NCBI GenBank assembly: GCA_029266455.1
Contig: JAQSWV010000012.1
Coordinates: 1-54,870, forward strand
Reading direction: 5' to 3'
DNA: 54,870 nucleotides
Source: Nocardioidaceae bacterium
GTDB lineage: Bacteria; Actinomycetota; Actinomycetes; Propionibacteriales; Nocardioidaceae
This document shows, one piece after another, positions 45,139-48,279 of this stretch. The translations under genes were made by a program, and so were the position numbers. Below the pieces are notes generated by a model, which searched no databases, was not told the DNA's origin, and saw only the letters and a program-made list of their open reading frames with translations. Numbering within the stretch: the first letter of the stretch is position 1; every line of letters begins with the position of its first letter.

Positions 45139-46005
45139 TCAGCGTGCCAGCACGGTCTCCACGACGAGCCGACTCAGCTTCTGCGGGTTGCGGACCGCGT
45201 AGAGGCGGGTGATCCGGCCGCTGTCGACGACAAAGCTCATGACGGTGTTGAGCTCGCCGTCCAGCACGATGCGCCCGCCAGGGGCGCCGTTGAGCCAGAG
45301 GGTGTCCACGACAGCAACGGGCGCGATACGTGCGAACCTGGAGAGGAACGCCACGACCTTGTCGGCACCGACGATCGGCTTCCGGGCGGCGGCGACGAGT
45401 CCGCCGCCGTCTGCGACCACCACGATGTCGGGAGCCAGAACCTCCATCAACCCGTGCACGTCACCGCTGGTCAGCGCCTTCAGGAAGCGCTCGACGACCA
45501 CTTGCTGCTCGCGCGGACCAACGTCCATCCGCGGCCTGCGCGCGGCCACGTGCGCACGCGCTCGGCGCGCCACCTGACGAACTGCGGCGGCCTTCTTGTC
45601 GACGACCACCGCAATCTCCTCGTACGGCAGGTCGAAGACCTCGCGGAGCACGAATACTGCCCGCTCCGTCGGTGTGAGTGTCTCGAGCACCGTCAGCATC
45701 GCCATGGAGACGCTCTCGGCGAGCTCCACGTCGTCGGCGACGTCAGGGGTGGTCAGCAGCGGCTCGGGGAGCCACTCGCCCACGTAGTCCTCGCGGCGCC
45801 GTGCCAGCGCGCGGAGGCGGTTGAGCGCCTGCCTGGTGGCGATGCGCATCAGAAAGGCGCGGGGGTCACGCACTTCGGCATGGTCGACCGCGGCCCACCG
45901 CAGCCAGGTCTCCTGCACCACGTCCTCGGCGTCGGCCGCGGAGCCGAGGATCTCGTAGGCCACGGTGAAGAGCAGGCTGCGGTGGGCGACGAACGGGTCG
46001 GTCAT
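45139..46005 (-). CDS. sigJ: ECF sigma factor of the ECF41/SigJ type with fused SnoaL-like domain
   Basis: A 288-residue sigma factor. Region 2 covers about 5-70 (FTVAYEILGSAADAEDVVQETWLRW), region 4 about 100-155 (LTPTERAVFVLREVFDLPYEEIAVVV). The linker holds the ECF41 hallmark YVGEWLPEP (74-82). The C-terminal SnoaL-like domain keeps DGGG (199-202) and a closing NPxKL (RNPQKL). In ECF41 this domain takes the place of an anti-sigma factor and tunes activity. The ATG overlaps the AhpD-like stop by 4 bases (ATGA), so the two are translated together, matching the known ECF41 link to carboxymuconolactone-decarboxylase-like proteins. A matching promoter lies ahead of the pair, implying autoregulation. 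Confidence 0.92.
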   Translation of the reverse strand: MTDPFVAHRSLLFTVAYEILGSAADAEDVVQETWLRWAAVDHAEVRDPRAFLMRIATRQALNRLRALARRREDYVGEWLPEPLLTTPDVADDVELAESVSMAMLTVLETLTPTERAVFVLREVFDLPYEEIAVVVDKKAAAVRQVARRARAHVAARRPRMDVGPREQQVVVERFLKALTSGDVHGLMEVLAPDIVVVADGGGLVAAARKPIVGADKVVAFLSRFARIAPVAVVDTLWLNGAPGGRIVLDGELNTVMSFVVDSGRITRLYAVRNPQKLSRLVVETVLAR

Positions 46006-46586
46006 GACTGCGACGCTGTGCCCGGCTCGGCCAAGTCGAGGTCGCAGGCGGCCGAGAACCCCTGCGACTCGATGCCCATCGCCACGTTCGACCGCGTGTA
46101 GAGGTTCGCAAGAGCGATCTGGGTGGTGAGCTCCACCATCGCCGGCTCGCCGAGCTGCCCCAGGAGTCGGTCGAACTGCTCGTCGCTGACGGTCGGCGGC
46201 GTAGCGGTCATGGCCTCGGCGTACTCCAAGACCTCACGCTCCAGTGGCGTGAAGACGTCCGAGGTGCGCCACGCCGGCACCTGGCTGGCCTTCCACTCCT
46301 CCAGCCCCTGGTTGTGCGCGTGGAAGTAGCCGAAGTCCAGGCACCACGAGCAGCCGACCTGCGCAGCGACGGCCATGTGCGCGAACGACTTCAGGTTCTC
46401 GTCACACGCGCTCCACTTCTGTGCCTTGCTGCTCACGGCGAGAAAGGCCTTCAACACGGGCCGGTTGTGGAAGTAGACGCCCACCGGCTCCGGCACCTCG
46501 CCAAGCAGCCTCCTGCTGAAGCGCTTCACGGTCGCGCCGAGGACACCGGTGATCGGAGCGGGCTGGATACGGGCGGTGCCGGTCAT
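46002..46586 (-). CDS. AhpD-like carboxymuconolactone decarboxylase family protein
   Basis: A 194-residue alkylhydroperoxidase-D-like protein. The redox motif is Cys79-Ser-Trp-Cys82 followed by DFGYFHAHNQG with His89, the proton-relay pattern of AhpD. TPLEREVLEYAEAMTATPPTVSDEQFDRLLGQLGEPAMVELTTQIALANLYTRSNVAMGI completes the family fold. It is the partner gene of the ECF41 sigma factor and the first in their operon. ATG 46586 has AGGAGGAC just upstream. The product may detoxify a peroxide or another reactive compound whose presence the sigma system senses; this is inference. Confidence 0.9.
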   Translation of the reverse strand: MTGTARIQPAPITGVLGATVKRFSRRLLGEVPEPVGVYFHNRPVLKAFLAVSSKAQKWSACDENLKSFAHMAVAAQVGCSWCLDFGYFHAHNQGLEEWKASQVPAWRTSDVFTPLEREVLEYAEAMTATPPTVSDEQFDRLLGQLGEPAMVELTTQIALANLYTRSNVAMGIESQGFSAACDLDLAEPGTASQS

Positions 46587-46621: not shown

Positions 46622-46648
46622 GACACCGGCCGCAGCCGCCGTGTGACA
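46622..46648 (-). promoter_or_regulatory. ECF41-type promoter of the AhpD/sigJ operon
   Basis: Read on the minus strand, TGTCACA (46648-46642), 16 bases, then TGTC (46625-46622), 35 bases before the AhpD ATG. The published ECF41 consensus is TGTCACA-N16-CGTC, so only one base differs. The same spacing recurs at two more promoters within 1.3 kb. Confidence 0.75.
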
Positions 46649-46741
46649 TGCGACCGGATACTTTCACTCTTCCGCCACGTGGCGGAGCCCGGTCCCGGCA
46701 GCTCCCCCATTGATACGGGGTACGACGGGGCGACGACCGTG

Positions 46742-46978
46742 TCAGTCGTCGGGGAGGGCGGCGAAGGTCCGCTTGGTGTCCAGGTACCAGCCCATCGACT
46801 TCTTGGGGTGCCGCCACCGGCTCTTCATGGCGTCGCGGGCCTCCTGGTGGGTCGCGTCGCCGGCCTTCTCCGCCTCCTTGAGGTGTCGGTCCTGGGCGTT
46901 GATGACGTCGTCGGCGCTCTCGCCGCGGTGCTCGAGGTCGCAGGGCCCTCCTAGAGCCCGGCAGGTCATCGTCTTCAT
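46742..46978 (-). CDS. DUF1059-like small protein
   Basis: A 78-residue protein beginning MKTMTCRALGGPCDLEHRGESADDVINAQDRHLKEAEKAGDATHQEARDAMKSRW. MKTMTCRALGG.CD is the conserved start of DUF1059 with two cysteines; the function is unknown. The tail KKSMGWYLDTKRTFAALPDD is longer than in many relatives. AAGGAGGG lies upstream of the ATG. It follows the second ECF sigma gene by 66 bases but has its own GGTCACA-N16-CGTC promoter, so it is a likely regulon member. Confidence 0.8.
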   Translation of the reverse strand: MKTMTCRALGGPCDLEHRGESADDVINAQDRHLKEAEKAGDATHQEARDAMKSRWRHPKKSMGWYLDTKRTFAALPDD

Positions 46979-47015
46979 GGTCGTGTCCCTCCTTGGTGTG
47001 GTGTCCTGTTGTGCT

Positions 47016-47042
47016 GACGATCGAGAGGCACTGGGTGTGACC
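47016..47042 (-). promoter_or_regulatory. ECF-type promoter of the DUF1059 gene
   Basis: Minus strand: GGTCACA (47042-47036), 16 bases, CGTC (47019-47016), 37 bases before the DUF1059 ATG and ending just short of the stop codon of the second sigma gene (47045-47047). It differs from the ECF41 consensus in one base and matches the promoter at 47918-47944 in both boxes. Confidence 0.75.
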
Positions 47043-47044
47043 GG

Positions 47045-47881
47045 TCAGCGGTGCGGCTGGCCGCCGTCGCGGCGCACGACCCGCTCGAGGACGTCGGGCG
47101 CAGCGCGGAACGTGATGGTGCGCACTAGGCCGTCATCGACGGTGAAGTCGAAGACGACCTTGGCCGCGCCGAGGTGGAACCAGGCGCAGCCCGGCCGGTC
47201 ACCAACGAAGACCGGAAGCGCGGCCTGGGCGCTGCCATTGAAGAACGTCGCCACCTCGCCGCGGCCCTCGATCTGGCGCGGTGTGCCGACCAGGACCGCG
47301 GCGTCGTCAGCGGTCACGGCGGCATCTGGTGCAAGCAGTCGTAGCAGGCGGTGGAAGTCGCCGTTCTTGGCTGCGGCCATGAAGGCGTCGACCACCTCCC
47401 AGTCGGCCAGGCGGTCCTCCGGATGCGGCTGCTGGACCTTGGCCCGTGCCCGCGACGCCAGCTTGCGCGCGGCCGCCGGCGTGGTGTCGAGGAGCGCCGC
47501 GATCGTCGGGAACTCGAAGCCGAAGCTGTCGTGGAGCACGAAGGCGACCCGCTCGTGCGGTGAGAGCCGATCGAGCACGACGTTCAGGGCGAGCCCCACG
47601 GTGTCGGCGAGAGCGACGTCGTCGGCCGGGTCGGTGACGGTCTCCCCGAGCCCGACGTCATCGACGGGTACCGGGGTGCGTGAGCGCAGCCGATCGAGGC
47701 ACAGCCTGGTGGTCACGGTCGTCAACCACGCCGGCAGGTTGTCGATGTGTGCGTCCGTCCCGTTCAGGCGCAGCCACGCCTGCTGGACGACGTCGTGGGC
47801 CTCGGCGTGGTCACCGAGCACCCTGCCCGCGATAGCCACCAAGCGCGGTCGTTCAGCCTCGAACAGGTCCGTCTGGTCCAC
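47045..47881 (-). CDS. Second ECF sigma factor with fused SnoaL-like domain
   Basis: A 278-residue sigma factor: region 2 about 5-65 (FEAERPRLVAIAGRVLGDHAEAHDVVQQAWLRL), region 4 about 100-150 (LSPHERVAFVLHDSFGFEFPTIAALLDTTPAAARKLASRARAKV), then a SnoaL-like C-terminal domain. WLPEP, DGGG and NPxKL are absent, so it belongs to a different SnoaL-fused ECF group than the sigJ-like protein. The GTG at 47881 is chosen because it stands 36 bases from the -10 box, as in the other two promoters (35 and 37), and AAAGGG lies 8 bases upstream; GTG 47890 is also possible. It probably controls itself and the DUF1059 gene. Confidence 0.88.
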   Translation of the reverse strand: MDQTDLFEAERPRLVAIAGRVLGDHAEAHDVVQQAWLRLNGTDAHIDNLPAWLTTVTTRLCLDRLRSRTPVPVDDVGLGETVTDPADDVALADTVGLALNVVLDRLSPHERVAFVLHDSFGFEFPTIAALLDTTPAAARKLASRARAKVQQPHPEDRLADWEVVDAFMAAAKNGDFHRLLRLLAPDAAVTADDAAVLVGTPRQIEGRGEVATFFNGSAQAALPVFVGDRPGCAWFHLGAAKVVFDFTVDDGLVRTITFRAAPDVLERVVRRDGGQPHR

Positions 47882-48279
47882 GGCCTTCACCCTTTCATCC
47901 CTACTGGTCACCCCACCGACGCGCGAGCAGGGCCGAATGTGACCACGCTGGGCACATCCGCCCTCCGGTTGCGTCGACGGTTGCTTGCTGTTGCGAGCAC
48001 TGTGGCTCCTCGGCCGGACAGTGGCACCCTCCCTCGCCCGTGTGCCAGGTAGCCCCGACGTGCGAGTCGTGCTGTCCTTGCCCAGATTCCCCTGCTGACG
48101 AAGGGTGGGTGCGGTGAGGGGGGTCACCCTGCCGAGGCTTCCGCGGATAGCACCATTGAACGTGGGCACCGTGGTCGTGGGGGCTTTCCCCGCGCACGGA
48201 GGCGAGCGTGTCAGAGGTCACTTCCGAAAGTGCGCTTGCGGTTTGTTAGCGGCCTGCGCCATGTGTCAGCGTGGAGGTC
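47882..48279. other. 398-base divergent intergenic region
   Basis: The region between the second sigma gene and the ferritin-like gene contains the sigma promoter at 47918-47944 and no supportable gene. The plus-strand side must carry a separate promoter for the ferritin-like gene; GGTCACTTCCGAAAGTG near 48220 is a partly symmetric sequence but no clear box pair follows it. Confidence 0.5.
47918..47944 (-). promoter_or_regulatory. ECF-type promoter of the second sigma gene (autoregulatory candidate)
   Basis: Minus strand: GGTCACA (47944-47938), 16 bases, CGTC (47921-47918), 36 bases before the GTG at 47881. The boxes and spacing equal those of the DUF1059 promoter and closely match the AhpD/sigJ promoter. 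Confidence 0.75.

Follow-up and report, generated by a model that had tools for sequence, protein, structure and literature searches.

ECF41 sigma factors are widespread and often multi-copy in actinobacteria. Their promoter, TGTCACA-n16-CGTC, and their COE targets were shown in two species by Wecke et al. 2012 (PMC3426412). In the operons described there, the COE gene comes first and carries the promoter, and COE genes are the sole conserved targets reported apart from the ECF41 genes themselves. A second system with related features is the ECF56 factor SigG1 of Streptomyces tsukubaensis (PMC7730460; PDB 7qh5), which has a SnoaL-type C-terminal domain without NPDKL and a small conserved partner gene. 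The partner, RsfG, is an anti-sigma factor of ~17 kDa that is encoded next to SigG1, is transcribed from its own promoter and binds the sigma factor. In the papers searched, which did not extend to the 2021 ECF re-classification, the DUF1059 family (PF06348) is linked neither to ECF41 nor to any other sigma factor.

The window analysed here, a stretch of 54,870 nt from a Nocardioidaceae bacterium (contig JAQSWV010000012.1), holds a COE-ECF41 operon and, adjacent to it, a second ECF41-like sigma factor gene followed by a DUF1059 gene. The two sigma factors, termed sigma1 and sigma2, are the only ECF41-like genes in the 3.43 Mb assembly, which contains a single DUF1059 gene.

Gene content of the locus

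Sigma1 (45139..46005, minus strand) is a canonical ECF41 factor of the SigJ type. It scores above the curated SigJ/ECF41-type models (TIGR02957, 352.9 bits with a cut-off of 323.25; NF007214, 314.1 bits with a cut-off of 271) and contains WLPEP (YVGEWLPEPL), DGGG (ADGGG) and NPQKL as well as a SnoaL_2 domain (27.2 bits, cut-off 27). Its start overlaps the stop codon of the upstream gene (46002..46586, minus strand), which encodes an AhpD-like/carboxymuconolactone decarboxylase (CMD) protein of 194 aa, the 'C' of COE (PF02627, 30.6 bits, cut-off 23). With WLPEP, SnoaL and NPxKL, the order COE then ECF and a TGTCACA-N16-YGTC promoter before the COE gene, this pair fully matches the published ECF41/COE arrangement, including SigJ of M. 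tuberculosis (PDB 5xe7), and is an ordinary ECF41 circuit. Some relatives of AhpD were listed with a TGA codon; selenocysteine was rejected, as the alignments show a normal CxxC motif with the aligned region free of in-frame TGA codons, and Rfam returned nothing.

Sigma2 (47045..47881, minus strand; Pfam Sigma70_r2 and r4_2) shares the core and the promoter architecture of ECF41 factors, but WLPEP, DGGG and NPxKL are missing. Neither WLPEP nor NPxKL occurs in any of the 80 orthologues, and DGGG is also absent in the clade. The protein remains below both curated models (NF007214 (SigJ), 201.2 vs 271 bits; TIGR02957, 169.8 vs 323.25 bits). The description of both proteins as SnoaL-fused ECF41 factors in the earlier note thus fits sigma1 in full, whereas sigma2 is ECF41-like without the hallmark motifs. 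Its SnoaL domain is sub-threshold in Pfam (SnoaL_2, 18.1 vs 27 bits; E<=0.01 in 55 of 67 members), but the predicted structure has an NTF2-like C-terminal domain whose best PDB match is SigJ (5xe7), then SigG1, with further NTF2-like structures also found. An assignment to ECF56 is not supported, since similarity to SigG1 (7qh5) is far lower than to SigJ (phmmer E of 3.5e-6 and 5e-35, respectively). As in ECF41, GTCAC(A)-N16-CGTC precedes both the putative target and the sigma2 gene itself. A COE neighbour is not typical: an AhpD-like match lies near 1 of the 80 sigma2 loci, and the AhpD gene of the window, although close to sigma2, belongs to its own operon with sigma1.

In the phylogenetic tree, sigma1 groups with sigma factors linked to an epimerase gene (24 of 26 relatives have WLP). 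A second group, inside which support is low, unites sigma2 with 61 other WLP-less sigma factors. When 247 genomes of the class are compared, sigma2 stands apart as a discrete clade, with 20 genomes scoring at least 378 bits and the next best match at 205. The chances are about even that sigma2 and its orthologues represent an undescribed ECF sub-group that split from ECF41; it would have an altered -35/-10 preference, be controlled internally by something besides the WLPEP-NPDKL contact, and have DUF1059 as its sole conserved effector. At six loci with WLPEP-less ECF41-like sigma genes, the motif occurs as a back-to-back pair, one copy at about -94 facing the sigma gene and one at -59 facing a divergent gene, which points to divergent targets in the wider WLPEP-less group.

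The DUF1059 gene (46742..46978, minus strand) encodes a small protein of 78 aa that exceeds the Pfam cut-off (PF06348, 23.4 bits, cut-off 21.1) over residues 1-36. It matches the N-terminal half of the profile alone (36 of 56 positions) and represents a diverged branch of the family. The alignment shows no variation at C13, H32 and H44 and has C6 in 65 of 66 sequences, which suggests a metal or thiol site. The AlphaFold2 model (pLDDT 96.9) consists of two short strands and three helices, for which no fold relative was found in the PDB. Classical DUF1059 members differ: at 20 such loci, a properly placed motif and an ECF41-like sigma gene nearby were both lacking, and they were rejected as targets.

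Promoter sites and their two classes

Three matches to KGTCACA-N16-YGTC, all on the minus strand, are found in the window and no others, with 0.11 expected from shuffled sequences. The first (47918..47944), a predicted autoregulatory promoter of sigma2, reads GGTCACA-N16-CGTC and lies 36 nt upstream of the GTG start (47881). The predicted DUF1059 promoter (47016..47042) has the same form, begins directly behind the sigma2 stop codon and lies 37 nt before the ATG (46978). The predicted promoter of the AhpD-sigma1 operon (46622..46648) reads TGTCACA-N16-TGTC with CGGCCGG before the -10 element, 35 nt upstream of the ATG (46586). The sites and distances are exactly those given in the earlier note, whose reading of them as ECF41-type promoters with N16 spacing, of AhpD as a target and of DUF1059 as a gene behind such a promoter was also borne out. 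The three sites are real and, judged from their conservation, functional-looking promoters.

The proposal that the two sigma genes share one promoter type was not supported. AhpD promoters follow TGTCACR-N9-CGGCCGGYGTC, typically continued by T, and begin with T in all 47 motif-bearing relatives. The promoters of sigma2 and DUF1059 are mostly GGTCACA-N16-CGTC followed by A, with G as first base in 54/70 and 54/65 cases, respectively; some start with T or C, and the first base alone is not diagnostic. A class matrix was built from 28 other AhpD promoters and 135 sigma2/DUF1059 promoters. In leave-one-out classification, 27 of 28 AhpD and 133 of 135 sigma2/DUF1059 promoters were assigned correctly, and 131 of the latter when the first base was ignored. 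The log-odds for the window are +19.6 (AhpD), -22.5 (DUF1059) and -17.4 (sigma2), where positive values denote the AhpD type and negative values the sigma2 type. Twenty AhpD loci outside the matrix served as an unseen set; 19 carry the motif and all 19 were placed in the AhpD class. Since four genomes of this set hold the sigma2 module as well, the split is not due to base composition, and the two classes are separable even within the same genomes. Spacer information amounts to 0.34-0.39 bits/base vs 0.05-0.10 in the 50 nt upstream. One idea was that the first -35 base is set by a residue of the recognition helix in region 4.2, lysine in sigma2 (ARK) and glutamine in sigma1 (VRQ); it was rejected, because WLPEP-less sigma factors with glutamine also have G-first promoters.

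Of the 29 other AhpD loci in the family, 28 keep the AhpD promoter motif and the remaining one is a truncated frame; among 20 loci at greater distance (43-57% identity), 19 keep it. In the family loci, a conserved block of ~YGTCTTCATGTCG-ACCCAC is located in the first 15 nt after the -10 element. This YGTCTTCATGTCG-ACCCAC block is stronger than a leader would predict and may be an operator or reflect a start-site preference.

A scan of the whole assembly, suggested in the earlier note, was performed with IUPAC patterns and the reversed pattern as control. It yielded nine matches to KGTCACA-N16-YGTC vs three for the control; five of the six outside the window are intragenic. Four of these lie in open reading frames with clear Pfam domains (Ada/AlkA, amidohydrolase, GGDEF, AIR synthase) and the fifth in a 750-aa frame with a weak BNR match alone. 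The sixth match, TGTCACA-N16-CGTC, is intergenic, 33 nt upstream of a NAD-dependent epimerase gene (contig C82 of genome G000; L006 1-336, L224) that is cut by the contig end. Further regulon members in this genome were therefore rejected. Because the epimerase often adjoins a canonical ECF41 gene in relatives, it probably belongs to a third ECF41 circuit that is unassembled or lost; such a circuit may sit in the assembly gap near the C82 epimerase. A DoxX-like gene divergent from the epimerase (L006 573-953) is preceded by an N17 version, TGTCACA-N17-CGTC (L006 452-479).

Conservation of the sigma2-DUF1059 module

The genomic neighborhood of sigma2 was compared across 80 orthologous loci from Nocardioides, Aeromicrobium, Knoellia, Janibacter, Cellulomonas, Gordonia, mycobacteria, Brachybacterium, Klenkia and others. 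DUF1059 is found within 3 kb of sigma2 in all loci but one (79 of 80, including two partial hits), mostly directly downstream and in seven loci divergently oriented. Motifs were searched within 200 nt of the gene start, with spacers of 15-17 and T in the -10 element allowed. Under these settings the motif precedes sigma2 in 70 of 80 loci and DUF1059 in 65 of the 74 loci with sigma2; the strict motif is missing for 10/80 sigma2 and 9/74 DUF1059 genes. All 135 promoters have a spacer of exactly 16 and CGTC as -10 element, and no match occurs in 132,852 nt of sigma2 coding DNA. The DUF1059 promoter is thus kept across many actinobacteria. Divergent loci carry two back-to-back copies of the motif, one per gene, and where DUF1059 is displaced (three loci) or 5 kb off (one locus), the motif moves along with it. 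The sigma1 and sigma2 modules are adjacent in none of 29 other AhpD loci and in one doubtful case among the 80 sigma2 loci; their adjacency is particular to this genome.

The occurrence of the motif at DUF1059 follows sigma2. Among the 247 class-wide genomes, DUF1059 of this type is present in 20 of 20 genomes with sigma2, and ten more genomes hold DUF1059 without sigma2. In none of these ten is the motif found upstream of DUF1059, although seven hold a canonical ECF41 factor above the cut-off. Conversely, sigma2 is the sole ECF41-like gene in five genomes, and the motif is kept there before DUF1059, sigma2 or both. This pattern speaks against the single regulon proposed earlier, as the motif on DUF1059 tracks sigma2 and not canonical ECF41. 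The absence of the motif in the ten genomes is partly confounded with ancestry, since their DUF1059 genes have diverged further (55-69% identity) and for the most part stem from other families. As the loci are related by descent, Fisher values overstate the significance; the pattern nonetheless goes both ways. At three of the DUF1059 loci that lack sigma2, the upstream DNA has AGGATCGGATAA in common, which may be an element for some other regulator.

Two proposed circuits and alternative readings

The best explanation, with a probability of roughly 0.8, is that two autonomous ECF41-type circuits are arranged one behind the other, one comprising AhpD and sigma1, the other sigma2 with its own gene and DUF1059 as targets. 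In the former, RNA polymerase with sigma1 would read a single promoter, TGTCACR-N9-CGGCCGGYGTC, of the AhpD-sigma1 operon. The SnoaL domain of sigma1 would adjust the activity of the factor to a signal, and its target would be AhpD plus, via operon read-through, sigma1 itself. In the latter circuit, sigma2, which is ECF41-like and belongs to an actinobacterial clade of its own, would read GGTCACA-N16-CGTC before sigma2 and DUF1059, with positive autoregulation and one effector as the outcome. We infer that the circuits are insulated. Limited cross-talk is expected, because the promoters, though alike in architecture, are distinguished by the first -35 base, by the 3' half of the spacer and by the base that follows the -10 element; some cross-recognition by the two sigma factors may still occur.

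The most basic objection, that GC-rich DNA yielded the motifs by chance, could draw on the five further genome matches that are intragenic, a number like the control count. It is refuted by the conservation of the motif, which keeps its position in orthologous loci by the dozen, the flanks upstream of it being at background level, and by the low expectation for the window; its probability is negligible. The view of the earlier note, in which both sigma factors read all three promoters as one shared regulon and the base differences are neutral drift, takes account of the common -35 core GTCAC, the N16 spacer and the -10 GTC, and is compatible with the wider WLPEP-less sigma factors, whose promoters start with G, T or C. 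Yet it is improbable given how cleanly the classes separate, with or without the first base and also in unseen genomes that hold both modules, and given that DUF1059 is without the motif where sigma2 is absent though canonical ECF41 remains.

A different question is whether DUF1059 acts on sigma2 itself, as an anti-sigma factor or co-activator in a feedback loop, as RsfG does for the ECF56 factor SigG1. The near-obligate pairing of the two genes and the RsfG precedent of a neighbour-encoded protein with its own promoter that binds a SnoaL-type sigma (PMC7730460) speak for it, and an external partner is plausible for a sigma factor without the ECF41 internal-control motifs. The likeness to SigG1-RsfG extends to separate start sites for both genes, which for sigma2 and DUF1059 are predicted. 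RsfG differs, however, in being an anti-sigma factor, whereas the 78-aa DUF1059 protein belongs to a family that is also present without the sigma factor: close homologues persist in ten genomes without sigma2, the wider family occurs in archaea (control hits), which have no sigma factors, and DUF1059 can sit 5 kb away from sigma2. A regulatory role is therefore rather unlikely. The persistence of DUF1059 without sigma2 and the occurrence of the family in archaea speak for an effector. The protein probably acts in the cytoplasm as such an effector, with a Cys/His site of metal or thiol type, and is probably not a dedicated anti-sigma factor.

Under the preferred reading of two circuits, sigma2 differs from described ECF41 systems in having its own promoter, a mostly G-first -35 element and DUF1059 instead of a COE gene as putative target. 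The sigma2-DUF1059 pairing is absent from the papers searched. As a dedicated pair it would be the first regulatory context for this DUF1059 branch and, if the sub-group is real, a Cys/His DUF1059 protein would belong to a defined regulatory circuit in Nocardioides, mycobacteria, Gordonia, Brachybacterium and others. The presence of two near-identical promoter classes in one genome would make the insulation of ECF promoters testable.
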